NCBI RefSeq assembly: GCF_001422445.1 | Contig: NZ_LMNA01000012.1 | Span: forward strand, 186,001-250,000 | Direction of reading: 5' to 3' | DNA: 64,000 nt | Source: Pseudorhodoferax sp. Leaf274 | GTDB taxonomy: Bacteria > Pseudomonadota > Gammaproteobacteria > Burkholderiales > Burkholderiaceae_C | Shown: positions 6,186-44,352 of the stretch, one piece after another | Layout of the letters: each line of letters begins with the position of its first letter | How positions within the stretch are numbered: the stretch's first letter is position 1 | The notes under the pieces: model-generated | The model's input: only the letters and a program-made list of their open reading frames with translations | Database searches by the model: none | Told to the model about the DNA's origin: nothing | Program-made: the position numbers and the translations under genes

Positions 6186-6632
6186 GATTGTTGCTGCGAT
6201 TGCCCAGATCGAGGGCGCATGGGCATGTGGGCCTGCAGCGTGCGGGGAGCGGCATCCTACCAGTCGACTGCCGAACCGGCCCAGTCGGAGATTCGCGGCA
6301 CGGCCGTTGCGCCATGCTGGGAAATCGCCCTGTGGCCGGCAGTGCTGGCTGTGGAGCGGCCATCACCAAGGGCTGGCCGGCAGCTGGTCGGCAGCAGATC
6401 GTCGGACCCCAGCTACCGCACGGCGACCAGCTGGATTGTCGGATTGGGCCAACCGAGCGGCGCAGACGAACGGTGCTATGGTGCGAAGGTGCCGAGATGA
6501 ATCAGCATGTAACGCAGAGATGGGTTTTTGCGTGCGCGTCAACGGTGGGGTGTCGTGGCCCGCAAGCGCTGTGGGTTGAAGATCCGCGCGGTCACGGCCT
6601 GGCAGCATGCGCATCGGCCGTATAACGCGTGT
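6186..6632. other. Intergenic region, no gene recognised
   Basis: This 447-base stretch separates the GT2 operon start (6185) from the stop of the small exported protein (6633). Open frames exist on both strands but none has protein-like composition, a ribosome binding site with a sensible start, or a family resemblance I know. It should hold the promoter for the minus-strand operon 6185-1. I checked by eye for a sigma-54 -24/-12 element in that direction and found none. Confidence 0.5.
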
Positions 6633-11707: not shown

Positions 11708-12604
11708 ATGCGCAACCTGCCGGATTCGCCAGAACCTCTTCGTTCGCTGACGCTGTTACGCCGGCGGCTGATCCAGGGCTTGATTGGCCTTGCGGGGGGA
11801 GGCGCATGGCTGACGCGGGCAGCACATGGGCAAACCGCGGTGCCGTTGCCGGCACCGATCGCTGGCACCGGCTACCAGTTGGTCAAGAACTGGGACTTCA
11901 CTTCGAACGTGACGGACATCGCCACGTTGCGCAAGGAGTTCTTCACGCGCTACATCTACAACAACGGGCAGCAGGACGCGCTGAACGATGAATGGCAGCG
12001 CTACCGCGACAACGGCAACCATGCGTTCGAGGACGATGCGCTGGCACTGGTCGCGCGCGCGCCTGCAGGCGTGGCGCGCGGGAAGATCGAAAGCGGCATG
12101 CTTCGATCCAAGTGGTTCGGCAAATATGGCTACTTCGAGTGCAGCATGAAGGTGCCTGCGGGGCGGGGGATGTGGCCGGCGTTCTGGCTCAACCCACAGG
12201 ACGGGCGGTGGCCTCCTGAGATCGACATCGTCGAGATCGTCAACAACGGCCGCGACACCACACGCAACAGCTTTCACATCCTGCACACCCGCAGCAAGGA
12301 GAAGAGGGTCGTCACCTCGTCGCGCCTGGACAAGCACCAATCCTATTGGCCGGGATTTGATTACAAGGATGATTACCACCGCTTTGCCGTCTTGTGGGAG
12401 GCGGACCGGGTCCGCCACTACGTGGACGACAAGCTTGTGGCGGACCAGAGTTTCAAGTGGGAGCACGAAGACGGGGTGGATGGCGGGCCGGCGCATATTT
12501 TGGTCAACCTCGCCGTGGGTGGCAGCTGGCCCGGTGCTCCGGACGGTGCCGACGCTTTTCCTGCCAGGCTGATGCTCCGGCATATCCGCGTGTGGCAAGC
12601 ATGA
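11708..12604 (+). CDS. Glycoside hydrolase family 16 protein, exported
   Basis: A 298-residue GH16 glycanase. The catalytic ExDxxE motif is EIDIVE at residues 171-176 (nucleophile E171, acid/base E176), in the context 'WPPEIDIVEIVNNG', with the family's Trp-rich strands ('GMWPAFWLNP', 'YHRFAVLWEADRVRHYVDD'). The N-terminus has RRRLIQ (18-23) followed by a Gly/Ala/Leu stretch and a probable cleavage after 'RAAHGQ', compatible with Tat export. It likely cuts the EPS itself to set chain length or release the polymer, as seen for GH16 lyase/hydrolase partners in other EPS loci. Confidence 0.88.
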   Translation: MRNLPDSPEPLRSLTLLRRRLIQGLIGLAGGGAWLTRAAHGQTAVPLPAPIAGTGYQLVKNWDFTSNVTDIATLRKEFFTRYIYNNGQQDALNDEWQRYRDNGNHAFEDDALALVARAPAGVARGKIESGMLRSKWFGKYGYFECSMKVPAGRGMWPAFWLNPQDGRWPPEIDIVEIVNNGRDTTRNSFHILHTRSKEKRVVTSSRLDKHQSYWPGFDYKDDYHRFAVLWEADRVRHYVDDKLVADQSFKWEHEDGVDGGPAHILVNLAVGGSWPGAPDGADAFPARLMLRHIRVWQA

Positions 12605-12659
12605 GGCAGGCCGGGGTTGCGGCGCTGACAGTCACACCTGACTATTCAGACTTGACACC

Positions 12660-14021
12660 ATGAGTTTTTCGCACCCAGGCCATGCATGGTCGGGCAAGGT
12701 GCCGCGCAGCAGTACCCCAGGCACGCAGACGGTCCATGCTGCCCCAGATGCGGCACAACCACCGTTCGGCCTGAAGGTTGCGTTTGTCTTTGTATTGCTG
12801 GCGCTGACGGTGCTGGACCGCTTTGGCCTGCGTCTGACGAGCAGCTATTCGGTCAATCCCGCCACGATGGCGATGTATGGGCTGGTCGCCGCGCTGCTCG
12901 TGACTCGCCATGCGCAGATCAACGTCGTGAGTGCTCTGCTCTATGTCGGTGCCGTGACGCTGGCGTGTACAAGCTTCGTCGTGAACATGACGTTCGGTAC
13001 CCGGCAACTCACGTCGCTGGGTTCTCTCATGCTGTTGTGCGTGCTGTATGCGCCGTTCGTGTTCGCGCTGCGCAACGGCCCGCATGCCGGGTCCATGTGG
13101 CGATGGATGATGCGCTGGTATGTGATCTTCATGGCAGTGCTTGCCGTGTTCGGCGTCACGCAATACTTTGCGCAGTTCGTGGTGCGACTGCCATGGCTGA
13201 TCGACTTCACAGACTACATTCCCACAGCTATTCGCGGGTCGGGCGTCTACAACACATCCAATGTGATTGGGTCGGCGTTCAAGTCCAACGGCTTTTTTCT
13301 GCGCGAAGCTTCTGGCTTTTCCATGTACATGGCGATTGCGCTTGTCTGCGAGTGGGAGCTTGCGCGACGCAAATCGCTGCTGGCCTTGTTCGGCCTTGCC
13401 GTGGTCGTGACGTATTCGGGTTCGGGCATGCTGATCCTTATCGTCGCGCTGGCGCTGCCACTTGGTTGGCAGACGTTTTCGCGTGCCGTCATCGCAGGGC
13501 TGGCCATCGGATTGGTCGTGTTGCTGTTCGGCGATGCATTGAACCTTTCTTACACCCTGGGCCGTGTGGGTGAGTTCAACGCAGAGGGCAGCAGCGCCTA
13601 TTGCCGGTTTGTGGCGCCTGCAAAACTGGTGGTCGAGCAGATCGAGTCTGATCCCTGGGTGGCTCTTCTCGGCCATGGGCCCGGCACGACGCAGAAAATG
13701 TCTGCTGTTTGTGAGACCACCTATGGCAAGGTGTTGTTCGAGTACGGAATGGTGGGCGCCTTGCTGTTTTCGGCGCTGATCCTGTTCGCGCTCGCGAGGC
13801 CATGGATTCCGCTGCGCTTGCGCTCGGCACTGGCCGTGAACTGGTATCTGCTCGGCGGCAATCTTCTGGGACCGGAATCGCTGTTGATGATTTTCTTTTT
13901 GAGTGCGATGTGGCCTTCGAGATTGCCGGAGAAGTTCGTTTTGAGTACGGCAAGACCGGATGATGCAGTGCGTGGCCGGGGCGCCGTGCAAAAGAACGAA
14001 AGGCCACGCGATGGCGGATAA
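12660..14021 (+). CDS. Wzy/O-antigen-ligase-like EPS polymerase
   Basis: A 453-residue integral membrane protein with about ten hydrophobic segments and one larger periplasmic loop (residues about 170-210, 'DYIPTAIRGSGVYNTSNVIG'), typical of the Wzy polymerase/WaaL ligase superfamily. Sequence alone does not separate polymerase from ligase, but its place in an EPS cluster with EpsF and a flippase makes it the likely polymerase. Its last 11 bases overlap the next GT2 gene. Base composition is lower in G+C than the neighbours in several rows, as is common for polymerases. Confidence 0.8.
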   Translation: MSFSHPGHAWSGKVPRSSTPGTQTVHAAPDAAQPPFGLKVAFVFVLLALTVLDRFGLRLTSSYSVNPATMAMYGLVAALLVTRHAQINVVSALLYVGAVTLACTSFVVNMTFGTRQLTSLGSLMLLCVLYAPFVFALRNGPHAGSMWRWMMRWYVIFMAVLAVFGVTQYFAQFVVRLPWLIDFTDYIPTAIRGSGVYNTSNVIGSAFKSNGFFLREASGFSMYMAIALVCEWELARRKSLLALFGLAVVVTYSGSGMLILIVALALPLGWQTFSRAVIAGLAIGLVVLLFGDALNLSYTLGRVGEFNAEGSSAYCRFVAPAKLVVEQIESDPWVALLGHGPGTTQKMSAVCETTYGKVLFEYGMVGALLFSALILFALARPWIPLRLRSALAVNWYLLGGNLLGPESLLMIFFLSAMWPSRLPEKFVLSTARPDDAVRGRGAVQKNERPRDGG

Positions 14022-15105
14022 CGCAGTGCCGACGGTGAGCATCGTGATCACCTGTTTCAACTACGAGCGCTACATCGCGCTGTCGGTGGGCAGTGCTCTG
14101 GCGCAGTCGATTGCGCCGACGGAGATCATCGTTGTCAACGATGGATCGACTGACGGGTCTGCGGGGGTGCTCGCCAGTTTCGGCGCGCAGATCACCGTGA
14201 TCGACCAAGCAAATGCTGGCCAGATCGCGGCAACCAACCGCGGATATGCCGCGAGCAGCGGCGACATCGTCATGTTCCTGGACGCCGACGACATTCTCGA
14301 AACCGGTGCCGTGCAGGCTGTGATCGAGGCGTGGACGCCCGACTGCGTCAAAGTGCAATTCGAGCTCGAGGTCATCAACGGGGCCGGCGAACTGCTGGGC
14401 AGGCGCTTTTGCAACTATGTGGAGCCCTACGGGCCGGAACAGGTGCGCAGTGAGTTCAAGCGGTTCGGCACCTATGTCTGGCCCGTCATGACAGGCAATG
14501 CTTTCGCGCGCCGATTCTTGCAAGGCGTGATGCCGCTGACGGTGAAGATGGCGCCGGACGGCATTCTCAACACGGTTGCGCCGCTGTACGGCAGCATCCA
14601 GGTCGTGCCCCAGGCACTGGCCCGCTACCGCTTGCATCAAGCCAATCAGAACTACCATGGCACGACATCCAATGCCATCGGTGTGCGGTTCGCCAAACAG
14701 GTGAATTTGCGGGTCAGCGAAGTGAACGTGTTGCGGCAGCATGCGGCCGCCCTGGGCGTGCAACTACCCGAAGGCAACTTGCTGGACCACGATATGACGT
14801 TCATCAACTACCGGTTGATGGCGCTGAAGCTGGGCGAGCCCTACGAGGAAAGCGCGGGTGATTCACCAGGGCGCCTGTGGCGCGCCGGCATCGTGGCATT
14901 GCGCAAGCGTCCCCTGCCATCGCACTTGAAACTGTTCCACATGCTGTGGCTGACGGCTCTGCGATGGAGTCCGCGCAGCGCGGCGCGCGCACTGATCCAG
15001 TTGCGGTTCCAGCGTGCCGAGTTGTTGCAGCCTTGGCGACGCCGTTGGGCAACCTTGACCGGTTTGGGGCGAGCGGCAGAGACCGGACCTGGAAGAAATT
15101 CGTAG
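14011..15105 (+). CDS. Glycosyltransferase family 2 protein
   Basis: A 364-residue GT-A enzyme. The start at 14011 (MADNAVPTVSIVITCFNYER) overlaps the polymerase stop by 11 bases. GT2 marks are 'SIVITCFNYE', 'EIIVVNDGSTDGS' and 'FLDADD'. The C-terminal half carries 'TGNAFAR', 'LARYRLHQAN' and 'GDSPGRLWRA', matching the layout of the GT2 at 5,109-6,185. It is the last plus-strand gene of the locus and converges on the acyltransferase 78 bases away. Confidence 0.87.
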   Translation: MADNAVPTVSIVITCFNYERYIALSVGSALAQSIAPTEIIVVNDGSTDGSAGVLASFGAQITVIDQANAGQIAATNRGYAASSGDIVMFLDADDILETGAVQAVIEAWTPDCVKVQFELEVINGAGELLGRRFCNYVEPYGPEQVRSEFKRFGTYVWPVMTGNAFARRFLQGVMPLTVKMAPDGILNTVAPLYGSIQVVPQALARYRLHQANQNYHGTTSNAIGVRFAKQVNLRVSEVNVLRQHAAALGVQLPEGNLLDHDMTFINYRLMALKLGEPYEESAGDSPGRLWRAGIVALRKRPLPSHLKLFHMLWLTALRWSPRSAARALIQLRFQRAELLQPWRRRWATLTGLGRAAETGPGRNS

Positions 15106-15183
15106 TCTTCACCCGTCCGGATGCGTTGCTTCCTTTGCAGTTGAAGCGCCTTCAGATGGCGGCAGAGCCACCTGGAAGGAGGG

Positions 15184-16341
15184 TCACCGCGTCAGATGAG
15201 GACTCGCGGCCGGCGCCGTGGCATAGGCACCATCGGTGGCTGGGACTTCGCGCCAGCGCTTCGTGAGCCACTTGGCCAATCCCTGCTCGAGCCAACGCCA
15301 CGACCAGTACGCTACCAGCCAACTCAGCAAGCCAGAGACGATGGCAAAAACCAGCGTCAGCTCCCAGCTGCCGCGACCGTCCGGAAAGAGCTTCAACAGC
15401 AAGAGCTTGGTCATGGACATGACCACCGGATGCACCAGATAGAAGCTGTAGCTGATGCTGCCGAGGTGCTGAGCCGCGCGCGTTCTGAGTGCGCCCAGGC
15501 CAGCCGGTGTTCCCGCCATGGCGACGCAGGCGATGACGTGCGTGCCAGCCAGAGCCGCGAGCAGGACGGACAGGGTGTGCCCATTGGCCAGCACGGACCA
15601 CAATGGCACGCTGAACTCCGCGGCGAATATGCCGGTGTCGAACCAGGCGAACAAGAACACCAGGAGTGTCAATGGCACAAGCATCGGTGTGCGCTGCAGC
15701 CAGCGCACGGCACCTGGTGCCAACGCGACCAGCACGCCTGGCAGGAAGAACAGGGCACGCGGATAACACGCGATGAGCAAGCCGGCCAGGGCAGCCCACA
15801 CCAGTTTGGCGGGCAGGGGGGCGCCCCGCCGCCACAACAGTGCAGCCAGCGCGGCAACGCCATAAAACACCCACTCGTAGGTCAATGACCAAGACGCCGG
15901 GTGCAGCAGAAAAATCGGCAACAGCGGCGGCAGCAAGAATAGATTGGCCAGCGAGTGCAGGACCCATTCCACAGGCGTGCTCGTGCCGCCGTGGCCAGCT
16001 GCATAACGCACGACGGCCAGAAAGATCGCGATGGGAATCCATACTGGAAAGATGCGGATCACGCGATCCAGCAGGAACCGCGACAGCGTGGCATGTCGGC
16101 GCAGGCTGTTCACGATGACGTAGCCACTGATCATGAAGAACAGTTCGACGCCATAGCCGAAGGCCATGAACAGGCGATGCAGCATCACTTGGGCCGTCGA
16201 TGTCGCGTCGGCAGTCGGCGGCAAACCGGAGTTTGCAACGTGGTGCAAGAACACCAGCAGCACGCAGACACCGCGGAACCCGTTGATGTTCAGCGAGTAG
16301 TTGTCCGGTCGCGGCCGGACGGCTGCGGGCTGCGGGCTCAT
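15184..16341 (-). CDS. Acyltransferase family 3 (OafA/YrhL-like)
   Basis: A 385-residue membrane acyltransferase with about ten transmembrane segments. The family start is visible: 'NINGFRGVCVLLVFLHHVAN' with the conserved RG and His, then 'GVELFFMISGYV' and 'RIFPVW'. Such enzymes O-acetylate or O-succinylate sugars of secreted polysaccharides. It is the last gene of the epsA-epsB-epsL-epsE operon (16 bases after epsE), so it should decorate this EPS. The transferred acyl group is unknown. Confidence 0.9.
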   Translation of the reverse strand: MSPQPAAVRPRPDNYSLNINGFRGVCVLLVFLHHVANSGLPPTADATSTAQVMLHRLFMAFGYGVELFFMISGYVIVNSLRRHATLSRFLLDRVIRIFPVWIPIAIFLAVVRYAAGHGGTSTPVEWVLHSLANLFLLPPLLPIFLLHPASWSLTYEWVFYGVAALAALLWRRGAPLPAKLVWAALAGLLIACYPRALFFLPGVLVALAPGAVRWLQRTPMLVPLTLLVFLFAWFDTGIFAAEFSVPLWSVLANGHTLSVLLAALAGTHVIACVAMAGTPAGLGALRTRAAQHLGSISYSFYLVHPVVMSMTKLLLLKLFPDGRGSWELTLVFAIVSGLLSWLVAYWSWRWLEQGLAKWLTKRWREVPATDGAYATAPAASPHLTR

Positions 16342-16357
16342 GGCCTTACCCTCGGTG

Positions 16358-17194
16358 TCAGAACAGGCTTTCGCGCACGTAGATCACATCATCGGGCTGC
16401 AGGGCATCCGAGAACTGTGGCGTGGTCTGTTGAACGACACCTGCAGCGTCCCTGCGGTGCAGCCGCAACCGGGTCTCGCTGCCGCGTGTGGTGGGGCCAC
16501 CGCCAGTCGCTAGCGCTTGCATGACGGTCATGCCGCGTTCGATCCTGTAGGCGCCAGGCCGCTGCGCTTCGCCGTAGATGTAGAACATCGGCGCGCGTGG
16601 AACGTAGAGGACGTCGCCCCCGGCAATGGCGACGTCGTTTTCGCTGGACTCGACCATGAACAGTGCCGTGATGTCGATGGTCTTGCGGTAGGGCCGTCCA
16701 TCGCGTGTGCCGGTCAGAATCACATAGTCTGCTCCGGTAGCGGTCGCTCCGCCGGCCATGGCCAGCACCTCCGTGACGCGGATGTTCGCGGTGTCCAGGG
16801 GAAAGCGGCCCGGGCGACTGGCATGGCCCAACACGGCAACTTGGTTGCCGCGCACCTGCAGCAGCACGATGTTGACCTGCGGCCGTACCAGGAAGTTGCC
16901 GGTGCGCAAGGCTTGGGCGATCTTTCGCTCCGCGTCCGCAATGGAAAGGCCGGCCAGTTCGACAGTGCCGATCAGCGGATAACTGATGGCGCCGTTGTCT
17001 GAGATGCGCGTTTCGACGGTCAGGTCCGGACTTTGGAAGACCTGCACTCGGATCGAGTCACCGACGCTGAGTCGGTAGTCGATGCTTTGTTGCTGTGCAG
17101 CTGCCATGCGTGGCAGCAGTGCACTGAACATTGTCACGATGAAGAAAGCCAACCAGACGGCCGTGCGGCGGGGGAGGGGCAGGATCAGGTTCAT
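16358..17194 (-). CDS. epsE: Polysaccharide export outer-membrane protein EpsE (Wza-like)
   Basis: A 278-residue exported protein. After a signal peptide (cleavage near residue 34, MAAAQQQ) comes the poly_export domain ('YRLSVGDSIRVQVFQSPDLT', 'RISDNGAISYPLIG') and then SLBB domains ('VAVLGHASRPGRFPL', 'FYIYGEAQRPGAYRIERGMT'). No lipobox cysteine is seen, unlike Wza. It forms the periplasmic/outer-membrane export channel with EpsF. It lies 21 bases downstream of epsL in the minus-strand eps operon. Confidence 0.92.
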   Translation of the reverse strand: MNLILPLPRRTAVWLAFFIVTMFSALLPRMAAAQQQSIDYRLSVGDSIRVQVFQSPDLTVETRISDNGAISYPLIGTVELAGLSIADAERKIAQALRTGNFLVRPQVNIVLLQVRGNQVAVLGHASRPGRFPLDTANIRVTEVLAMAGGATATGADYVILTGTRDGRPYRKTIDITALFMVESSENDVAIAGGDVLYVPRAPMFYIYGEAQRPGAYRIERGMTVMQALATGGGPTTRGSETRLRLHRRDAAGVVQQTTPQFSDALQPDDVIYVRESLF

Positions 17195-17215
17195 ATGCGC
17201 TTTGCCAAATGATCG

Positions 17216-18460
17216 TCAGTAGGAGATCTGGGCTGAGAAATTGGCCGAATTGTTCTTGAAATCGAAGCCGGAGTAATTGGACACGCGTTTTTCCGTCTTC
17301 AACCAAAAACCCAAGGTGATGCTGTCGCGAGGCCGCCAATCCAAGCCGAGGGACGCCGACCGCGTGGTGTCGGCGCGGTCGAACGGAAAGTTGGCGCGAT
17401 CGATTGCCCCGCCATAGTCTTCGTCGTACTGCTCCAGATGCATGCGCAGGCTGGTGTGCGCCGTCGCCTGCCACGAGGGGGTCAACGTGAATCTATTGCC
17501 GGACGCATAGCTGCTGTACTGGGTCTGGTAAGAACGCCAGTCACGGTCTGCCGTTGCATCCAGCCGGAGTTTGGCCGTCGGTTGCCAACTCAGGCGCAGC
17601 CCACCCACCGGACCACTGAAATCACTCCCCGCAAAACCGGGGTATTGGCGGCTGACATGCGCCACGCGCGCATACAGGGTGGTTTTTCCGGTGGCCACCC
17701 ACCTTGCAGTGAGTTCGTGCTCTGTGTTGTTGAACGTGGTCGGCAGCGGCGTCGTGGTCACGGTTGCCTCCTCGCTGTACTCACCATGGCCCTTGCGCAG
17801 CCTGTAACTGAGTTGGCTGCCGGAAGGCAACACATACCGCACGCCGCCGGCCACACTCTGCACCTTGAATCCGCGGTCCTGGGCCAGCAGTTCCTCGTTG
17901 CGCAGGCGAAACTGGTCCACGGAACCGAAAAGCTTGACGGCTGCACCCATGTCGTACTCGCCCTGCGCACGCAGAACGCTGTCGGTCCGCACATTGCGCT
18001 GGGTCACGTCCTGCGTGTCGGAAAAGCTGTTGGAATTCTGGCGCTGGGTGGCCTGCAACGTTCCGCGCAGACGGGGTGTGATCGACCAATGCCACGCCGC
18101 CGCATAGTTCAGCGCTGTGAAATTCAGGTAATCGTAGTTCTGGTACTTGTAATTGACGAGCGAAGCATTCAGTTCGATGCGCTGCAGAGAGTAGCTTTTA
18201 TCCAGCAACAGGCCGGCAGAGCCGATCCGGATCGTATCGGACCAAGGACGGCCTCCCAGCGTCGATGCAGGAAGCGTCGAAGACAGCCGGAACAGGTTGC
18301 TGTCATGCAACTGTTCATACCGGGCCACGAGTTGCAGCGTTTTGTCGGTGTCCGCCGAAACGCCGCCCGCGCCCGTCAACATGCACGCCAGAACGCTGCC
18401 CTTGACGAGCGGATGGTGCAGGACGATGCAGGGATGAAAGGAGCGCCGCTCAATGGTCAA
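17216..18460 (-). CDS. epsL: EPS outer-membrane beta-barrel protein EpsL
   Basis: About 414 residues of an EpsL-type protein: after a hydrophobic export signal ('LVKGSVLACMLTGAGGVSA') the whole chain is alternating amphipathic strands with aromatic ends and finishes 'NNSANFSAQISY', as in outer-membrane barrels. The start is uncertain. I choose a TTG at 18460; an in-frame TTG at 18532 would add 24 residues, and an internal ATG inside the signal would leave too short a leader. None has a good Shine-Dalgarno. EpsL is characteristic of exosortase-B-type EPS loci and may be the outer-membrane exit or a docking partner of EpsE. Confidence 0.8.
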   Translation of the reverse strand: MTIERRSFHPCIVLHHPLVKGSVLACMLTGAGGVSADTDKTLQLVARYEQLHDSNLFRLSSTLPASTLGGRPWSDTIRIGSAGLLLDKSYSLQRIELNASLVNYKYQNYDYLNFTALNYAAAWHWSITPRLRGTLQATQRQNSNSFSDTQDVTQRNVRTDSVLRAQGEYDMGAAVKLFGSVDQFRLRNEELLAQDRGFKVQSVAGGVRYVLPSGSQLSYRLRKGHGEYSEEATVTTTPLPTTFNNTEHELTARWVATGKTTLYARVAHVSRQYPGFAGSDFSGPVGGLRLSWQPTAKLRLDATADRDWRSYQTQYSSYASGNRFTLTPSWQATAHTSLRMHLEQYDEDYGGAIDRANFPFDRADTTRSASLGLDWRPRDSITLGFWLKTEKRVSNYSGFDFKNNSANFSAQISY

Positions 18461-18586
18461 GTGTGAATGTTCAAATCTGAAACGAGGGTTCACCACGACA
18501 ACCTGCAGTAAAGCGGCGATTCGTCGACCCAACCGATGGGCTGCACGAGAGACGCACGTTCATTGGATCCGAGAGACGGCGGGGCA

Positions 18587-20011
18587 TCAAAACGCCTTGC
18601 TGTCCTTGAACACGACGCCCACCGTCCTCGCGATGATGTAAAGATCCAGCCGCAGCGACCAATTGCGCAGGTAGTCCAGGTCGAACTCGATGCGGCGTTG
18701 CATGGACTCCAGATCGTCGCCGCCACGGAAACCGTTCACCTGCGCCCAGCCGGTGATGCCGGGGCGCACCTTGTGGCGAATCATGTAGCCGGAGATCTGC
18801 TTGCGGTATTGCTCGTTCACCGCGATGGCGTGAGGCCGCGGGCCGACGACGCTCATGCGTCCTTGCAGAACGTTGATGAACTGCGGCAGCTCGTCCAGCG
18901 AGGTCTTGCGGATGAACGCGCCGATCTTGGTCACGCGCGCGTCGCCACGCTTAACCTGCGTGTAGCTCTTCTCGCCGTCTTCGGTCACGGTCATCGAGCG
19001 GAACTTGTAGACCATGATCTCCTTGCCGTCGAGGCCGTAGCGGCGCTGCTTGAAGACGATCGGGCCGGGCGAGGTCAGCTTGATGCCGATGGCCACGGCC
19101 AACATGACCGGGGCGATCAGCACCAGGATCACGGATGCCAGCAGGATGTCCCAGGCGCGCTTGACCAGGCCGGTGGTGCCGCGGAACGGAGTCTCGCAGA
19201 CGGAGATGACGGGCGTGCCGCAGACCGATGCGCTGCGGCCCTGGATCAGGTCGGTCACGAACATGTCGGGCACGAAGTAGATCGATGCGGTGGTGTCTTT
19301 CAGGCCGTCGAGCACCTGCAGGATGCGCGGCTGCGACGCCATCGGCAGCGACAGGTAGATCATCTGCACGTCGTTGGCCTGGACGTAGGCCGGCAGGGCG
19401 GCAAGGCGGTCGATCAGGCCGAAGCCCATGGGCGCGTTCAGGCGGTGCAACTCGCGGTCGTCGAAGAAGCCGGAGACCTCGATCTGGGAGTAGGGCGTCT
19501 CGCGGATGCGGCGCGCCAACGCCACGCCTTGCGTGTTCATGCCGACGATCACGGCCTTGCGCGGCGGCCCGCGCATCGCCAGGATGCCAGGCGCCGCCAG
19601 GCGCAGGGCGCGGTGTGCCGCGATCTGGGACAGCGGGGCCAGCCACAGCCACATGAGCACTGCACCGGTAGGGAATTGGCGGCTGTAGCCCGTGGCCACG
19701 CCCATGACCAGCAGCAGCGCCGCGATGGCGACCCAGTTGATCAGGGTTTGCGTGACCAGCTTGCGCAGCGACGAGCGGATCTGCGTCGTGCCAGGAAATG
19801 TCATCGCAAACACGATGACGGACAGGATGAGGTACTCCGGCTTGAGGCTGCCGCTGTGGTAGAGGCCGACGCCCCACAGCGACAGGACCAGCATGCCGGG
19901 GTCAATCAGCGATTCAATGAAGCTGAGCGGGTGGTCCTTGCCGAGAGTGCCGCCGCCTGCTGCGTCGGAGGCGGCCTTGATGTCGGTCAGTGGGATCGGG
20001 GAGCTATCCAT
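18587..20011 (-). CDS. epsB: Undecaprenyl-phosphate hexose-1-phosphate transferase EpsB (WcaJ-like)
   Basis: A 474-residue polyisoprenyl-phosphate hexose-1-phosphate transferase that starts repeat-unit synthesis on undecaprenyl phosphate, probably with glucose-1-phosphate. Four N-terminal transmembrane segments and a CoA-binding-like Rossmann region ('[15 protein letters not shown]') precede the catalytic bacterial sugar transferase domain: '[13 protein letters not shown]', '[20 protein letters not shown]', '[20 protein letters not shown]', '[12 protein letters not shown]'. It overlaps epsA by 8 bases, and a 126-base gap separates it from epsL. Confidence 0.93.
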
Positions 20012-20831
20012 GGGCGTAGGGGCTGTTCTTCAAGCGGGACACGGCCTGGGCGCGGTTGTAGACGTCCAGCTTCTTGAAGATGCGCTGAAGGTGGTTCTTG
20101 ACGGTGAAGGCACTGATGTCCAGGATGGTGCCGATCTCCTGGTTGGTCTTTCCCATCTCGACCCATTGCATGATCTGCAGCTCGCGGCTGGTCATGCCGT
20201 TGTCTGGTACGGGCGCGGCCATGCCTTGTTGGCGTGAAATGGTGATCTGCGCGGCCGCCCCGGCCGGATGGCCCTGCGTGAGCGCGTCGGAAGGCAAGGC
20301 GACCTGGCGCATGGCCATGTCGATGTAAGGCAGCAGCGCAGCAATGGCAGCTGCGCCAGCTTCCTCGGAAACGGGGTCGCGGCTCAACACCACGTACAGG
20401 CAATCCTCGCCGCTGCGCAGGTCGCGCAGGCCATGCACCAGGGCAGAGCGCATCGGTGGGGAGATCGAACGCAGCGGGTCTTGCAGCGGGTGCAGCGAGA
20501 AGACGCCGCTCATGCGTTCGGCAGGCGTCACATAGGGCTGCTTGTTTCCGGCCGACCAGTTGGCGAACAGCTCCTGCAGGCGGGGAACCAGCGCGGACGC
20601 ATCGGCCCGCGCCGTGCGCACACCGCGCAGTGGCGAGACGATGTCGTAGCCGATGGCGTTGCGCTGGAAGTCGCCCCAGGCTGCCACGAGGATGTCGTGC
20701 GGCATGAAGTACTGGATGCCGCCACGCAACCAATTGAACAAGTCCAGGTGGGTGCGGATGCGTGCGACTTCGGCCAGTACATCGAAGCAGCGTTCGCGGT
20801 CAGCGTCGGGGAGTTTGCTCAAAAATGACAT
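20004..20831 (-). CDS. epsA: LuxR-type transcriptional regulator EpsA
   Basis: A 275-residue regulator with an N-terminal region of the EpsA family ('LFNWLRGGIQYFMPHDILVA') and a C-terminal LuxR/GerE helix-turn-helix ('TSRELQIMQWVEMGKTNQEI', 'FTVKNHLQRIFKKLDVYNRA'). It heads the minus-strand eps operon. AAGGA lies 5 bases before the ATG. It likely controls EPS gene expression; the signal it senses is unknown, and no canonical acyl-homoserine-lactone residues were checked. A sigma-54 type element lies about 320 bases upstream, so it may itself be under RpoN control. Confidence 0.88.
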   Translation of the reverse strand: MSFLSKLPDADRERCFDVLAEVARIRTHLDLFNWLRGGIQYFMPHDILVAAWGDFQRNAIGYDIVSPLRGVRTARADASALVPRLQELFANWSAGNKQPYVTPAERMSGVFSLHPLQDPLRSISPPMRSALVHGLRDLRSGEDCLYVVLSRDPVSEEAGAAAIAALLPYIDMAMRQVALPSDALTQGHPAGAAAQITISRQQGMAAPVPDNGMTSRELQIMQWVEMGKTNQEIGTILDISAFTVKNHLQRIFKKLDVYNRAQAVSRLKNSPYAHG

Positions 20832-21148
20832 TCACGTCCTTGAGGATGACCTGTCAATGGAATACATGGACGCCGCGGCCCCCTGCGCGCGTCGAAATGG
20901 TGCATCTTCATGGATGCTCCCGGCCTCATTCTTGGCTCTCGGTCTCGACTGTCGCCAGTTTGATGCCCGTCCATGTCTGCCTGATGGCATCCCCGTCTGG
21001 ACCAAATTGTCATTGTTCGGCCTCTTTTCGTCAGGATGCGCCCAGCCGTCAGCTGGTCGGGGGGCCGTCAACGACAGGAAAGCCTGCCTTGACAGATTGT
21101 CGATGCCGGTGGTTGGTAGCGGGCGATCTTAGCGGCACAGTGCCGTGC
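20832..21148 (-). other. Long untranslated leader of epsA
   Basis: This stretch between the sigma-54 type element and the epsA ATG holds no recognisable gene; the short minus-strand frames in it are not protein-like. If transcription starts about 12 bases after the -12 GC, the epsA message would carry a leader of roughly 300 bases. TGTCAA on the plus strand at 20852-20857 reads TTGACA on the minus strand, but there is no matching -10. Confidence 0.4.
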
Positions 21149-21164
21149 AGCAACTTTCAAGCCA
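21149..21164 (-). promoter_or_regulatory. Sigma-54 (RpoN) -24/-12 promoter element upstream of epsA
   Basis: The minus strand reads TGGCTTGAAAGTTGCT. Compared with TGGCACGN4TTGCW, only two positions differ (A5 and C6 are T), and the GG and GC are at the exact required spacing (12 bases from first G to first G). It points towards epsA and lies in the gap after the epsP stop, where a promoter for the eps operon is expected. The downstream PrsR gene in this window encodes a sigma-54 activator, which fits. Confidence 0.6.
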
Positions 21165-21236
21165 TCAGGAAATGTAACAGTGTCCTGATTGACGCCCGTT
21201 CCTGGTGCAGCTCAGCGGCTCCCGCGCAGCCTACCG

Positions 21237-21695
21237 TTACTTACGGATCCTGTCGCGCCACGACAACACAGCCTGTTCGATCAGGCCATGCGTTTCCTGG
21301 TAGACCGACTCGTGCCGGAGGTAGGGGTCGGCGATCGTTCTCCCAAGCCAGTGGCCCAGCATGTGGGTCTTTCCACGCGCTTGCGGATCGATCTTCTCGA
21401 TCTGACGGACATGGGGCCGTTCCATCACAAGAATCAGATCGGCCCACCAGAGCAACGTGCCGTTGACCTGTTGCGCGCAATGCCGCTCCAGCTCTTGCAG
21501 CAGCCGCGGCTGTTGGCGGGCGACATGGAGCACCGTTTCGTCCGCAGGCTTGCCGACCAACGCACGCGTGCCGGCGGATTGCACCTGCGTCATCTGCCCG
21601 CGGCCATCGGCCTCCAATTGCAGTCGCAACATGGCTTCCGCCAGTGGGCTGCGGCAGATGTTGCCGGTGCAGACGACCAGGATGCGTTCGTACAT
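21237..21695 (-). CDS. epsP: Low-molecular-weight protein-tyrosine phosphatase (Wzb/EpsP-like)
   Basis: A 152-residue LMW phosphatase starting MYERILVVCTGNICRSPLAE, with the P-loop C9-x5-R15 and the general-acid Asp in 'IADPYLRH' near residue 120. In EPS and capsule systems it dephosphorylates the partner BY-kinase to reset polymerisation. It is the last gene of the gmd-fcl-epsP group, 14 bases downstream of fcl. Here its expected target EpsG lacks C-terminal tyrosines, so the true substrate needs checking. Confidence 0.92.
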   Translation of the reverse strand: MYERILVVCTGNICRSPLAEAMLRLQLEADGRGQMTQVQSAGTRALVGKPADETVLHVARQQPRLLQELERHCAQQVNGTLLWWADLILVMERPHVRQIEKIDPQARGKTHMLGHWLGRTIADPYLRHESVYQETHGLIEQAVLSWRDRIRK

Positions 21696-21709
21696 CGCGA
21701 ACCCTCGGT

Positions 21710-22663
21710 CTAGGCTGCAGCCCGTGCCAGAAAGTCCTGGTACGCACGCGAGATGCCTTCCTCCAGGCCGATGCGCGGCTGCCACCCCATGGCGTTGAGC
21801 TGGCTCGAGTCCATCAGCTTGCGCGGCGTGCCGTCCGGCTTGCTGCGGTCGTAGACGATGCGACCTGTGAAACCCACTGCCCGCATGACCAGTCCGGCCA
21901 GCGTGGCGATGCTGACATCGGCACCGGCGCCCACGTTGATCAAGGGTCCATCGAAGCCGCGTTCCATCAAGAACACGCAGGCATCGGCCAGGTCGTCCAC
22001 GTAGAGGAACTCGCGCAGCGGCGCGCCCGTGCCCCAGACCACGTACTCCGCATCGCCGCGCAGCTTGGCCTCGTGGGCCTTGCGGATCAGCGCCGGCAGC
22101 ACATGGCTGTTGGCCAGGTCGTAGTTGTCGTTGGGGCCATACAGGTTGGTCGGCATGGCGCTGGTGTACTGGCGCCCGTACTGGGCGTTGTAGGCCTCGC
22201 ACATCTTGATGCCGGCAATCTTGGCGATGGCATAGGGTTCGTTGGTCGGCTCCAGCAAGCCCGTCAGCAGGTGGTCTTCCCGGATCGGCTGCGGTGCCAG
22301 CTTGGGATAGATGCAGCTGGAGCCCAGGAACATCAGCCGCTGCACCCCGGCCAGGTGGGCCCCGTGGATCAGGTTGTTCTGGATGCAGAGGTTCTGGTAG
22401 AGGAACTCGGCGCGGTAGGTGTTGTTGGCCTGGATGCCGCCCACCTTCGCGGCAGCGATGAACAGATAGTCGGGCCGGTGTTCCGCGAGGTAGGCGTGCA
22501 CGGCGGACTGGTCCTGCAGATCCAGCTCGGCACGCGCCGGCGCCAGTACCCGGCTGTAGCCGCCGGTCTGCAGGCGGCGCACGATGGCCGAGCCCACCAT
22601 GCCCCTGGCGCCGGCCACCAGGATGGTGGCGTCGCGGGCCATCGGAGCAGTGCGCGCGCTCAT
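21710..22663 (-). CDS. fcl: GDP-L-fucose synthase
   Basis: A 317-residue extended SDR enzyme that epimerises and reduces GDP-4-keto-6-deoxy-D-mannose to GDP-L-fucose. Visible marks: NADP-binding '[13 protein letters not shown]', the catalytic Ser block '[12 protein letters not shown]', and YxxxK in '[11 protein letters not shown]'. The start at 22663 makes a 4-base ATGA overlap with gmd. A second Met (MARDATIL) 21 bases in is possible. With gmd it supplies an activated fucose for the EPS. Confidence 0.93.
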
Positions 22664-23775
22664 TCGTGGTGGTCGTAAGCCGTGAAGCCGGCGAGGCGCA
22701 CCAGCGCATCGCGCTTGGCAGAGGTGTAGTCCGCCTGGACCATCTCTGCCACGAGTTCCTTCAGCGTGGTCCTGGGGGTCCACCCAAGTTTCTGCCGGGC
22801 CTTGGTCGGATCGCCGAGCAGCGTGTCGACCTCGGTCGGCCGGAAGTAGCGCGGATCGACCTTCACGACCACATCGCCCGCCTTGCACTTGGCCTGCTTG
22901 CCCTGCACGGCAGCCACGATGCCGCGTTCGTCCACGCCCGAACCCTCCCAGCGCAGGGAGATGCCGAGTTCGCCAGCTGCGAATTCCACAAACTGGCGCA
23001 CGCTGTACTGCACGCCGGTGGCGATGACGAAGTCTTCCGGCTGCTCCTGCTGCAGCATGAGCCACTGCATCTCGACATAGTCGCGCGCGTGGCCCCAGTC
23101 GCGCAGCGAATCCAGGTTGCCCAGGTACAGGCAGTCCTGCAGCCCCAGCGCGATGCGCGCCGTGGCGCGCGTGATCTTGCGCGTGACGAAGGTCTCCCCG
23201 CGCAGCGGGCTCTCGTGGTTGAACAGGATGCCGTTGCAGGCGTACATGCCGTAGGCCTCGCGGTAGTTCACCGTGATCCAGAAGGCGTACATCTTGGCCA
23301 CGGCGTAGGGGCTGCGCGGGTAGAAGGGGGTGGTCTCCTTCTGCGGCGTCTCCTGCACCAGGCCGTACAGCTCGCTCGTGGAGGCCTGGTAGAAGCGCGT
23401 CTTCTTCTCCAGCCCCAGGATGCGGATGGCTTCGAGCAGCCGCAACGTGCCGATGCCGTCGGCGTTGGCGGTGTATTCAGGCATCTCGAAGCTCACGGCC
23501 ACGTGGCTCATGGCGGCCAGGTTGTAGATCTCGTCGGGCTGCACCTGCTGGATGATGCGGATCAGGTTGGTGCTGTCCGTGAGGTCGCCGTAGTGCAGCA
23601 CCATGTCGCGGTGCTCCACGTGCGGGTCCTGGTACAGGTGGTCGATCCGGTCGGTGTTGAACAGCGAGGCGCGCCGCTTGATGCCGTGCACTTCGTAGCC
23701 CTTGTGCAACAGGAATTCGGCGAGGTAGGCGCCGTCCTGGCCAGTGATGCCGGTGATCAGGGCGACTTTTTTCAT
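22660..23775 (-). CDS. gmd: GDP-mannose 4,6-dehydratase
   Basis: A 371-residue extended SDR enzyme converting GDP-D-mannose to GDP-4-keto-6-deoxy-D-mannose. It begins [20 protein letters not shown] (NADP site) and contains '[13 protein letters not shown]', 'STSELYG', '[15 protein letters not shown]' (YxxxK) and '[13 protein letters not shown]', all Gmd hallmarks. The ATG at 23775 is preferred over an in-frame TTG 12 bases upstream. It is the first gene of the gmd-fcl-epsP operon. GDP-mannose must come from genes outside the window. Confidence 0.94.
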
Positions 23776-23939
23776 GGGTGTCGTCAAGGAAGTCCGCGGG
23801 ATTGGAGCAAAGCAGCGGGCGGGCCGCCGCGCGTGGACGGAAGTATCGCAGTGCAGGCCGACGCGCTGGAACGCGCAGTTACACTGCGCCCTGTTTCACC
23901 GATCCGTCATATTTTTGACACATCCCCCAGGACCTGCGC

Positions 23940-24587
23940 ATGCTGTTCGGCAAGCTGATGCCACGCGATGGCAACTTTTTCGAGATGTTCAACCAGCATG
24001 CCGACCGCATCGTGGAGGCTGCGCGCGCCTTTTCGCAGCTGGTGGCCAACTACCACGATGCGCATCTGCGTGAGCAATACAACCGCGACGTGGACAACGC
24101 CGAACGCGCCGCCGACCGCGTCACGCAGGAGGTCAACCGCACGCTGCACAAGACCTTCATCACGCCGATCGACCGCGAGCAGATCCACTCGTTGATCAAT
24201 TGCATGGACGACGTGGCCGACCTGCTGCAGGACGCCGCCGAGACCATGGCGCTGTACGACGTGCGCAGCATGACGGACGAGATCCGCCGCCTGACCGAGC
24301 TGTGCGTGAAGTGCTGCGAGCGCGTGCACGATGCCGTCAAGCTGCTGTCCAACATCGCCGAGCCGGCCACGGCCGAAGCGGCGCTGAAGACCTGCGAAGA
24401 GATCGACAAGCTCGAATCCGACGCCGACCGCGTCATGCGCGCCGCGCTCAGCAAGCTGTTCCGCGAGGAGCCCGACGTGCGCGAGCTGATCAAGCTCAAG
24501 GCCATCTACGAGCTGCTGGAGACGGTCACCGACAAGTGCGAGGACGTGGCCAACCTCATCGAGGGCATCGTCCTCGAGAACTCCTGA
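23940..24587 (+). CDS. DUF47/PhoU-like phosphate transport regulator
   Basis: A 215-residue all-helical protein of the DUF47 family (PhoU-like). The N-terminus 'MLFGKLMPRDGNFFEMFNQH' and the internal 'LHKTFITPIDREQIHSLIN' and 'DDVADLLQDA' are family blocks. Members sit next to Pit transporters and are thought to modulate phosphate uptake, perhaps by binding metal clusters through acidic motifs. The pitA gene follows after 15 bases, so the two form an operon. TACACT at 23880-23885 could be a -10, but without a clear -35. Confidence 0.92.
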   Translation: MLFGKLMPRDGNFFEMFNQHADRIVEAARAFSQLVANYHDAHLREQYNRDVDNAERAADRVTQEVNRTLHKTFITPIDREQIHSLINCMDDVADLLQDAAETMALYDVRSMTDEIRRLTELCVKCCERVHDAVKLLSNIAEPATAEAALKTCEEIDKLESDADRVMRAALSKLFREEPDVRELIKLKAIYELLETVTDKCEDVANLIEGIVLENS

Positions 24588-40876: not shown

Positions 40877-42991
40877 GTGGACAGTCCCAACATCCTGCTG
40901 AGCATCTGGGGGTATGCCTTTACCGGGCTGACCTTCGCCGCGTTCGCCGTGGCGCTGGTGCGTCAGCACACGCTCTGGGCCACACACAAAGTCTCGCCAG
41001 GCCTGCTCTTGGGTGCTGTCGTGGCGTCGGCGATTTGGGCCTTTGTGGTGCTTGCCACATTGCTGGGGGCACCGCCCTGGCTGTTCGAATTCAGCTTGCT
41101 GGCAGATTGCCTGCGCTACGCCTGCTGGATTGGATTCCTGCTGTTGCTGTGGAGGCCTGAGCGCCGGGGATCTTTGGCGCGTCGCTTCGGTTGGGCGGGT
41201 GTGGTCGCTGCACTGCTGGTCGGGGGCACCTTGGCGGTGCGCTTGAACAGCTTGCTCCAGGGCGGTGATGCGCTCGCTGTGTCGGGCCAGTGGCAACTGC
41301 TGGGCGCCATGGCGCTGCCCGTCTTCGCGCTGTTCTTGCTGGAACAGGTCTACCGCAGCGTGGCCGACGACGTGCGCTGGAGTCTCAAGCCGCTGTGCCT
41401 GGGTCTGGCCGGCATCTTCCTTTTCGATCTGTACGTGTTCTCGCAGGCGGTGCTGTTCAGCCGACCTGACCTCGACGCCGTGAGCGTGCGCGGCTTGCTG
41501 CATGCGGTGATGGTCCCGCTGATGTGGTTGTCGATGACCGGCCGCAGCGACTGGGTCGGCAAGGTGCGCGTCTCACGCACGGCGATCTTCCATTCGGCCA
41601 CGCTGGTGCTCGCAGGCGTCTACCTGATCTTCATTTCCGCGGTTGGTTACTACGTGCGCTATTTCGGTGGCGACTGGGGACGGGCGCTGCAACTGGCGTT
41701 GGTGTCTGTTGCCTCGGTGGGCATGATGGTGCTGCTGATGTCCGGCACGGTGCGTTCGCGCCTGCGGGTGACGCTGGGCAAGCACTTCTTCCGCTACCGC
41801 TACGACTACCGGGAGGAATGGCTGCGCTTCACCCAGACCCTGTCGAACGACCGGTCGCCGCTGGCGATGGGCCAGAGGGTGATTCGGGGCCTGGCCGACA
41901 TGCTGGAAAGTCCGGCGGGTTGCCTGTGGCTGCGCGGCCCGGGCGAGAGCACGTTGCGGTGTTCGGCGACCTGGAACATGCCGGCGCCCAAGGACAAGGA
42001 AGAGGCAGACTCTGCGTTTTGTCGTTTCTTGCTGAACAGTGGTTGGGTGATCAACCTGCAGGAGTACCGCTCGTTTCCCCAGCGCTACGGAGACCTCGCG
42101 TTGCCGGCCTGGTTGCAAGAGGTGCTGCAGGCCTGGCTCATCGTGCCCTTGACTGTTGGTGACGAGCTGATCGGCTTCGTCGTGCTGGCTAGCGCGCGCG
42201 CCGATGTGGACGTCAACTGGGAGGTCAACGACCTGCTGAAGACGGCTGGCCGGCAGGCCGCCAGCTTCCTGGCGCAGATGCAGGCGACCGAGGCCTTGCT
42301 GGAGGTGCGCAAGTTCGACGCCTTCAACAAGATGTCCGCGTTCGTGGTCCACGACCTCAAGAACATCGTGACCCAGCTGTCCCTGATGATGAAGAACGCC
42401 AAGCGGCTGCAAGGCAACCCTGAGTTCCAGCAGGACATGCTCATGACTGTCGAGAATTCCTTGGACAAGATGCGGCAGCTGATGCTTCAATTGCGCGAGG
42501 GAGCCAAGCCAACCGGAACCGTGCATGGCGTGGGTCTGGCGGTCATTGCCCAGCGCATCGCCCGGGTGGCCGAAGGCCGCGGTCGCGAACTGGAACTCGA
42601 CCTCGACGACCAGGTCGTCGCGCGCGGCCAGGATGAGCGGCTCGAACGCATCATTGGCCACATGGTGCAGAACGCCTTCGATGCCACCGAGCCTCCAGGC
42701 CGTGTCTGGCTGAAGCTGCGGCGCGAAGCCGGCATGGCAGTGGTCGAAGTCGGCGACACCGGGCGCGGCATGTCCGAACAATTCGTCCGGGAACGCCTGT
42801 TCAAGCCATTTCAGACCACGAAGCAGGCGGGTATGGGCATCGGTGCCTACGAGAGTTATCAGTACGTGCAGGAACTGGGTGGAAAAATCCAGGTGGACAG
42901 CGAACTTGGACGCGGAACAGTGATCATGATGCTGTTGCCGTTGTTCGACGCCCACTCGACATCCGTCCTGCAGCCATTGGAGAACGCATGA
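40877..42991 (+). CDS. prsK: Sensor histidine kinase PrsK
   Basis: A 704-residue membrane histidine kinase. The first 300 residues hold about nine hydrophobic segments, then a GAF-like region (about 340-460), the H box 'AFVVHDLKNIVTQLS' with His492, N box 'HMVQNAFDAT', and the ATP-lid 'VGDTGRGMSEQF' and 'GMGIGAYESYQYVQELGG'. It starts with GTG at 40877. It overlaps prsR by 4 bases, its partner. PrsK is the kinase of the XrtA/PEP-CTERM regulatory system; its signal is unknown. Confidence 0.92.
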   Translation: MDSPNILLSIWGYAFTGLTFAAFAVALVRQHTLWATHKVSPGLLLGAVVASAIWAFVVLATLLGAPPWLFEFSLLADCLRYACWIGFLLLLWRPERRGSLARRFGWAGVVAALLVGGTLAVRLNSLLQGGDALAVSGQWQLLGAMALPVFALFLLEQVYRSVADDVRWSLKPLCLGLAGIFLFDLYVFSQAVLFSRPDLDAVSVRGLLHAVMVPLMWLSMTGRSDWVGKVRVSRTAIFHSATLVLAGVYLIFISAVGYYVRYFGGDWGRALQLALVSVASVGMMVLLMSGTVRSRLRVTLGKHFFRYRYDYREEWLRFTQTLSNDRSPLAMGQRVIRGLADMLESPAGCLWLRGPGESTLRCSATWNMPAPKDKEEADSAFCRFLLNSGWVINLQEYRSFPQRYGDLALPAWLQEVLQAWLIVPLTVGDELIGFVVLASARADVDVNWEVNDLLKTAGRQAASFLAQMQATEALLEVRKFDAFNKMSAFVVHDLKNIVTQLSLMMKNAKRLQGNPEFQQDMLMTVENSLDKMRQLMLQLREGAKPTGTVHGVGLAVIAQRIARVAEGRGRELELDLDDQVVARGQDERLERIIGHMVQNAFDATEPPGRVWLKLRREAGMAVVEVGDTGRGMSEQFVRERLFKPFQTTKQAGMGIGAYESYQYVQELGGKIQVDSELGRGTVIMMLLPLFDAHSTSVLQPLENA

Positions 42992-44352
42992 GCTCGGAAA
43001 AAATGCGCGCGCTGTTGATCGTCGAAGACGATCCGGCGCTGCAAAAGCAGATCAAGTGGTCGCTGGACCGTTTCGAGTCGGTGACCGCGTTGGATCGCGA
43101 GTCCGCGCTGGTGCAGTTGCGTCGGCATTGTCCGCCGGTCGTGACGATGGACCTGGGGTTGCCGCCGGACGCGGACTCGGTCACCGAGGGATTCAAGCTG
43201 CTGGAGCAGATCCTGGCGGTGGAGCCCGACACCAAGGTCATCGTCCTGACGGGCCAGAACGACCAGGCCAACGCTTTGCGCGCAGTGGCCATGGGCGCCT
43301 ACGACTTCATGCCCAAGCCGTTCGACCCGGACGTGCTCAACCTGACGGTGGACCGGGCGTTTCGCCTGTTCGAACTGCAGAAGGAGAACCGCCGTCTGCG
43401 GTCCATGCAGCAGCCCGATGCGCTTGGCGGCTTGATCACGCGCGACCCGGAGATGCTGCGCCTGTGCCGCACCATCGAAAAGGTGGCCAACAGCACGGCG
43501 ACCGTCATGCTGCTTGGTGAAAGCGGTACGGGCAAAGAGGTGCTGGCCAAGGGGCTGCACCAGGCGTCGCCACGGCGCAACGGCAAATTCGTGGCCATCA
43601 ACTGCGCCGCGATTCCGGAGAACTTGCTCGAAAGCGAACTCTTCGGCTATGAGAAGGGCGCCTTCACCGGCGCCGCCAAGACCACGATCGGCAAGATCGA
43701 GACCGCCAACGGCGGCACCTTGATGCTCGACGAGATCGGCGACCTGCCGTTCACCCTGCAGGCCAAGCTGCTGCGCTTCCTGCAGGAGCGCACCATCGAG
43801 CGCGTGGGCGGTCGGCAAGAGATTGCGGTCGATGTGCGGATCGTCTGCGCCACGCACCAGGACCTCAAGGCCCTCAGCAAGGAGAGCCGCTTCCGTGAGG
43901 ACTTGTATTACCGGTTGGCCGAGATCGTGGTGAACATTCCGCCCCTGCGCGCGCGGGTGGGCGATCCAGCGCTTCTGGCCCATGCTTTCGTGCGTCGCTT
44001 TGCACAAGAGCAGAACCGGGGATCTGTCAGCCTGAGCGAAGACGCCGTTCGCGCGATCGAAGCGCATGGCTGGCCGGGCAATATCCGCGAACTCGAAAAT
44101 TGCATCAAGCGCGCGGTCATCATGGCCGATGGCAACCAGATCGTGCGCGACGACATCGGGCTGGACGCGCCCGAGCCTGCCGAAGGCCTGGACCCTGCGC
44201 TAGACCTGCGGGCCGTGCGTGATGCGGCCGAACGTACCGCCATCATCGCCGCGCTGGGCCGCGTCAACGGCAACATCGTCAAGGCCGCGGAACTGCTCGG
44301 CGTCAGCCGGCCCACGCTGTACGACCTCATGCACCGACTGGGCTTGAAATGA
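42988..44352 (+). CDS. prsR: Sigma-54-dependent response regulator PrsR
   Basis: A 454-residue NtrC-type activator. Receiver domain (residues 8-130) with the phospho-acceptor Asp55 in 'VVTMDLGLPPD'; AAA+ domain with Walker A GESGTGKE (177-184), GAFTGA (224-229, the sigma-54 contact) and 'GGTLMLDEIGDLP'; C-terminal Fis-type HTH 'KAAELLGVSRPTLYDLMHRL'. It should activate RpoN promoters when phosphorylated by PrsK. The candidate RpoN site in this window is the one upstream of epsA. It overlaps both neighbours. Confidence 0.95.
   Translation: MSSEKMRALLIVEDDPALQKQIKWSLDRFESVTALDRESALVQLRRHCPPVVTMDLGLPPDADSVTEGFKLLEQILAVEPDTKVIVLTGQNDQANALRAVAMGAYDFMPKPFDPDVLNLTVDRAFRLFELQKENRRLRSMQQPDALGGLITRDPEMLRLCRTIEKVANSTATVMLLGESGTGKEVLAKGLHQASPRRNGKFVAINCAAIPENLLESELFGYEKGAFTGAAKTTIGKIETANGGTLMLDEIGDLPFTLQAKLLRFLQERTIERVGGRQEIAVDVRIVCATHQDLKALSKESRFREDLYYRLAEIVVNIPPLRARVGDPALLAHAFVRRFAQEQNRGSVSLSEDAVRAIEAHGWPGNIRELENCIKRAVIMADGNQIVRDDIGLDAPEPAEGLDPALDLRAVRDAAERTAIIAALGRVNGNIVKAAELLGVSRPTLYDLMHRLGLK

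Follow-up and report, generated by a model that had tools for sequence, protein, structure and literature searches.

A probable sigma-54 promoter in front of the epsA operon of Pseudorhodoferax

The epsA locus and its upstream element

The stretch of DNA that we analysed (the window, 64,000 nucleotides long) carries a polysaccharide operon on its minus strand. The first gene, epsA (20004..20831), encodes a LuxR-type regulator (TIGR03020). It is followed by epsB (18587..20011; undecaprenyl-phosphate glucose phosphotransferase, TIGR03023), epsL (17216..18532; an outer-membrane protein with an uncertain start, TIGR03014) and epsE (16358..17194; a polysaccharide export protein, TIGR03028), all four over the curated cut-offs of their families, and by an acyltransferase gene (15184..16341; PF01757). 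Upstream of epsA, also on the minus strand, lie epsP (21237..21695), which encodes a low-molecular-weight tyrosine phosphatase, then fcl and gmd. The best models of both epsP and fcl score below their cut-offs (for epsP, 106 bits against a cut-off of 243).

The neighborhood is only partly constant. EpsP is encoded upstream of epsA in the window's own genome and in all five relatives (L204-L208), and the rest of the fetched 20 kb around epsP-epsA-epsB-epsL-epsE varies between these species. The EpsB proteins of the five relatives are 70-94% identical to that of the window, the EpsL proteins only 31-39%. In each of the six genomes a single exosortase exceeds the cut-off of TIGR02602, with weaker second matches also present; the exosortase of the window's own genome (G000:C23:116095-116805) is XrtA, and the EpsA and EpsL proteins of the window are members of families named XrtB-associated. 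The window also contains prsK (40877-42991) and prsR (42988-44352) on the plus strand. Family models identify both, and GAFTGA is found at residue 224 of PrsR, which bears out what an earlier note on this DNA had said about the pair.

Between epsP and epsA, at 21149..21164 on the minus strand, lies the sequence TGGCTTGAAAGTTGCT, with GG at 21163-21162 and GC at 21151-21150. It begins 72 nt after the epsP stop and is separated by 317 nt from the epsA ATG (20831). The earlier note had described it as a near-consensus sigma-54 site just past the epsP stop that points into epsA-epsB-epsL-epsE-acyltransferase. This description holds: GG and GC are intact and correctly spaced, 10 of the 12 specified positions of TGGCACGN4TTGCW agree (14/16 if N is counted), and the family models give the same order of genes.

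A lone match of this quality is not beyond chance. The window contains 14 matches with at most two mismatches to the consensus, while 18.8 ± 4.5 are expected from 100 shuffles, 87 of which have at least 14. We also report scores from a sigma-54 position weight matrix (PWM) trained on the genus itself, on 23 sigma-54 sites of Pseudorhodoferax PEP-CTERM genes (leave-one-out scores 5.3-22.0). The sites were drawn from 30 loci and 20 places in the own genome, which overlap; a site with GG and GC and at least 9/12 positions was present in 31, from which three duplicates and five doubtful sites were dropped by eye. Under this matrix TGGCTTGAAAGTTGCT scores 14.4 bits and ranks second among all positions of the window on both strands.

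The highest score in the window belongs to CGGCATCGGTTTTGCT (52445-52460, minus strand) and may be due to chance; this site falls within the end of an ABC1-kinase gene, and a sodium:solute symporter gene (50921-52366) follows it at a distance of 78 nt. Third is CGGCACGGCCGTTGCG (6296-6311, plus strand) in the long region before epsF; EpsF is present in one of the five relatives within the fetched 20 kb. In the whole own genome the pattern TGGCNTGN4TTGCT has nine matches and the reversed pattern two, and several of the matches other than that before epsA seem to be intragenic. A second own-genome site that shares the -24 half, TGGCTTGCAACTTGCT (G000:C12:387340-387355), stands 24 nt before a putative start ATG of an ORF of 492 codons.

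Conservation in the genus and the predicted leader

Our genus sample consists of six genomes, including the window's own, each with one EpsA over the cut-off. The sequence TGGCTTG[A/G]AAGTTGCT is found upstream of epsA in all six. TGGCTTGAAAGTTGCT is identical in five of them and the sixth has a single change in the spacer, so that 15 of the 16 columns are identical. GG and GC are kept 6/6 within the genus, which answers the check for conservation in relatives proposed in the earlier note (outside the genus, sites are found in a minority of loci). The spacing between GC and the epsA ATG is also maintained, at 310-319 nt in every genome. Both element and distance are kept even in the sixth, whose identity to the other five over the alignment is no more than 45-49%. 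Across the whole epsP-epsA intergenic alignment 21% of the columns are identical in all six genomes, and TGGCTTGAAAGTTGCT is its best conserved 16-mer.

Conservation extends beyond the element. All six genomes share, without any change, a GTTACA block (21173..21178, minus strand) that lies 8 nt before TGGC. Together the two form a 29-nt element, GTTACA-N7-ATGGCTTG-N-AAGTTGC, of which every one of the six genomes has exactly one copy (reversed control: 0). If the pattern is relaxed to GTTACA-N8-TGGC-N7-TTGC with one mismatch, the six epsA sites and one more are found, and the reversed control has three.

It is this conservation within the genus, and not the match to the consensus, which alone is not above chance, that leads us to read the element as a sigma-54 promoter. 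We put the probability that TGGCTTGAAAGTTGCT serves as the -24/-12 promoter of the epsA-epsB-epsL-epsE-acyltransferase operon in Pseudorhodoferax at about 0.72, judging from sequence comparison. RpoN-RNA polymerase would form a closed complex at TGGC..TTGC, and opening it would fall to a sigma-54 activator other than PrsR.

At sigma-54 promoters transcription starts about 12 nt past the GC. This geometry predicts a start at 21136..21140 on the minus strand, and a start at that position would give epsA a leader of about 300 nt (20832..21138, minus strand), a length that is kept in the six genomes. The putative leader has blocks that are conserved in five genomes. Among them we note a palindrome, GACAATCTGTC (21091..21101, minus strand), and a partial repeat of it, GACAATTT (21011-21004, minus strand), each present in 5/6 genomes.

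We considered two further roles for the leader and rejected both. As a structured RNA it is not convincing. The covariation term is unfavourable (+2.84), only 6 of 75 pairs are changed on both sides, and the fold z-scores of four pieces are -0.18, -0.65, -1.06 and -2.28, where the last value comes from a single relative. An Rfam scan of 12000-24000 returned one match, which lies elsewhere and is far below its gathering score, and no family in the leader. The own genome has a leader ORF of 64 aa, but only one relative (L112) has a comparable start and end; the remaining four have a broken frame or one with a different end. No leader ORF is kept from start to stop across the six genomes.

The main rival view takes the conserved block for a weak sigma-70 promoter, with -35 TTGCT[C/G] and -10 TA[A/C][C/G]AT, preceded by an activator site GTTACA-N7-ATGGCTTG. 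The likeness to sigma-54 sites would then be incidental, or the two promoters would overlap. A possible -10 hexamer, TAAGAT in the window (21126..21131, minus strand) and TAACAT or TACCAT in the relatives, follows TTGCT after 17 nt, a spacing (TTGCT-N17-TANNAT) from which none of the six genomes departs, not even the diverged one. The GTTACA block would also be accommodated, as it lies outside the core of a sigma-54 promoter. However, the two hexamers match only 3/6 and 4/6 positions, and a scan of 20700-21400 for sigma-70 promoters (two hexamers with at least 4/6 each and at least 9/12 in all, spacing 16-18) found none. We consider this explanation unlikely.

Alternatively, the element could be the binding site of another factor, for example EpsA itself, and no promoter at all, with epsA being transcribed by read-through from gmd-fcl-epsP. 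Such a site would fit the conservation of GTTACA, which lies outside the promoter core. The constant position of epsP upstream of epsA, and the fact that no terminator was found in 20700-21400, fit read-through, which by itself is possible. A binding site of this kind leaves unexplained why GG and GC stand at exact sigma-54 spacing in 6/6 genomes, and also why similar sites recur outside the family. As an account of the element we regard it as very unlikely.

Sites before epsA in other bacteria

How far does a sigma-54-like site before epsA extend beyond Pseudorhodoferax? We used 73 of 80 named loci, omitting the five genus loci (the discovery set), one with short upstream DNA (L176) and one with a partial match (L187). 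We scanned 350 nt of DNA before each EpsA match, and in these stretches 62 of the loci are distinct in sequence. Sites with intact GG and GC and at least 10/12 positions are present in 9 of these 62, compared with one in antisense and 1.2 in shuffles; none of 200 shuffles reaches nine. At 9/12 or more there are 20 sense sites, six antisense and 5.7 in shuffles, and at 11/12 or more the numbers are two, one and 0.1. The nine positive loci are titled Methylotenera, Methylovorus and Gallionellaceae, with two unclassified. The other 53 of the 62 loci have no site at 10/12 in the 350 nt upstream of epsA.

These counts are inflated by the relatedness of the loci. When the counts are averaged over 24 units of loci clustered at 60% EpsA identity, sites at 10/12 amount to 4.0 versus 0.57 ± 0.59 in shuffles, whose maximum is 2.9. 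With nine units at 50% identity the values are 1.2 versus 0.21 ± 0.27, which does not pass the shuffle maximum of 1.6. Neither does the value for three units at 40% identity (0.3 versus 0.08, shuffle maximum 0.4). The 29-mer found upstream of epsA in the genus is absent from the other loci scanned; the closest sequence has six mismatches among the 21 specified bases.

The window's own family presents a different picture. EpsA occurs in 23 of its 299 genomes. In the 19 non-genus loci of the family, the 350 nt scanned contain one site at 10/12 (shuffles: 0.42) and one at 9/12 (shuffles: 1.82). Since the family has no excess of such sites, sigma-54-like control of epsA does not apply everywhere, and the promoter in Pseudorhodoferax does not simply descend from a state that its family shares. 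The same lack of an excess in the family's other genera speaks in favor of a sigma-70 promoter at the conserved block. That explanation leaves unaccounted for the excess of GG/GC-intact epsA sites in other beta-proteobacteria.

In the Methylotenera group we aligned 13 loci, of which 12 are titled Methylotenera or unclassified Betaproteobacteria. TGGCAT-N6-TGCA, with a variable spacer, is present in 9 of the 13. The same nine loci have a block resembling TGAC[A/G]-N5-GTTG that ends 72-82 nt upstream of the site, and the other four have neither. Judging from the sequences, such a pair has the layout of an activator site and a -24/-12 promoter. The block, around GTYGTAAWWYTGACAC..AGTTG (L148, L149, L152, L153, L155, L139-L141 and L146), resembles a PrsR box with a spacer that is one base shorter. 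PrsR over the cut-off is absent from all seven genomes tested among these nine loci.

The earlier note had suggested that the epsA operon is controlled by RpoN. This part of its proposal is likely to be right on present comparisons: conservation in the genus and the recurrence of sites in other, mostly methylotrophic beta-proteobacteria argue for it, and the single site among 19 loci from other genera of the own family argues against it.

Candidate activators and known systems

The earlier note had also named PrsR as the natural activator of epsA, and this suggestion did not stand up. That RpoN and PrsR together drive epsA directly seemed attractive at first sight: prsR lies about 22 kb from epsA, PrsR is present in 6/6 genomes of the genus, and it is predicted to drive PEP-CTERM genes (PMC1569441, in the part of that article available to us). 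In many PEP-CTERM genes of the genus a PrsR box of the type GTCG-N9-ACA precedes the sigma-54 site, mostly by about 60 nt, and the pattern matched 17 of 28 non-duplicate PEP-CTERM sigma-54 sites. We found no such box near epsA of the own genome in a scan that started 400 nt upstream of the site and ran through the whole leader; its top score is 8.6 bits, compared with 16.7-26.8 for the 15 training boxes (two doubtful ones of the 17 were dropped). For the other five epsA loci of the genus, 700 nt of upstream DNA yielded no box either. The highest score there, 9.5, comes from a looser PWM; its 17 training boxes score 15.8-25.7 except for a doubtful one at 9.0 that was later dropped.

The distribution of PrsR points in the same direction. 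Over its curated cut-off it is present in 9 of 36 genomes searched, the six Pseudorhodoferax and three others, and in those three (L160, L172 and L174) epsA has no site at 9/12 within 350 nt. Conversely, none of 14 other genomes picked for a sigma-54-like epsA site (12 with 10 or 11/12, and L139 and L140 with 9/12) has PrsR over the cut-off, although several are metagenome assemblies that may be incomplete. PrsR is hence unsupported as the activator of epsA, because no PrsR box lies near the gene, PrsR is found in 0/14 of the other genomes, and 13 other activators are available in the own genome. Direct control of epsA by RpoN and PrsR appears highly improbable to us.

Which activator could act instead? 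The own genome has one rpoN match and 14 strong matches to PF00158, namely PrsR and 13 other candidate sigma-54 activators. For these 13 loci ten proteins were scanned: one is NtrC over the cut-off, one is GlrR-like below the cut-off, and the remaining eight have no match at E 1e-130. From genomes with a sigma-54-like epsA site five regions with PrsR-like matches were fetched and four proteins scanned. One is GlrR-like below the cut-off, two are response-regulator activators for which no named family is over the cut-off, and one has a VpsR domain; none is PrsR over the cut-off. Upstream of the element in Pseudorhodoferax neither the PrsR-box scans nor the six-genome alignment let us recognise an activator site, and no activator common to the genomes with sigma-54-like epsA sites emerged.

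VpsR-domain activators are AAA+ regulators of the sigma-54 type that have been linked to polysaccharide. One of them, with GAFTGA, is encoded in a Methylotenera genome that has a sigma-54-like epsA site. The domain is over the cut-off in 18 of 40 genomes, but in none of the six Pseudorhodoferax, and we therefore rejected it as the common activator.

It is useful to compare the epsA element with systems that have been described. Promoters of PEP-CTERM genes consist of a PrsR box and a sigma-54 motif (Haft 2006, PMC1569441, in the accessible text); motif 1 is expected 32-92 nt before the sigma-54 motif, and in that article motif 2 lies on average 71 nt from the start and 221 nt in the extreme case. 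The epsA element shares with them the -24/-12 motif with GG and GC, and both kinds of site are found in the same genome. It differs in that the PrsR arrangement was not found at epsA, in that 310-319 nt separate GC from ATG as opposed to a mean of 71, and in that the product of epsA is not a PEP-CTERM protein.

A parallel in logic is Burkholderia cenocepacia, where, according to the portion of PMC5552954 that we could draw on, RpoN and BerB drive berA, and BerA turns on the bep exopolysaccharide genes. We see the resemblance because the first gene of the epsA operon itself encodes a regulator, just as RpoN drives a regulator gene in the case of berA. The likeness has its limits. BerA responds to c-di-GMP, whereas EpsA is LuxR-type, and berB lies close to berA, while prsR, of the activator genes in the window the one closest to epsA, is about 22 kb away.

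Our literature searches, in which few subscription papers were covered, returned no report of sigma-54 control of this type of epsA operon among the matches listed. In Aquincola, transcription of pepA depends on RpoN1, and the EPS genes are described, with reference to an earlier paper, as lying outside RpoN1 control (PMC9850573, as far as the available part of the article goes). This statement would speak against our prediction for epsA if the two clusters are comparable.

Somewhat more tentatively, one could propose that in several beta-proteobacterial lineages EpsA-type polysaccharide operons are under RpoN through activators other than PrsR, and that in bacteria like Pseudorhodoferax the matrix polysaccharide and the PEP-CTERM matrix proteins therefore share a sigma factor but respond to separate signals. 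We hold this wider view to be somewhat less probable than its opposite. If the promoter is real, it would provide a concrete entry point to the question of when these bacteria make their matrix polysaccharide. The decision to make it would then be separate from the control that PrsR exerts over PEP-CTERM proteins.
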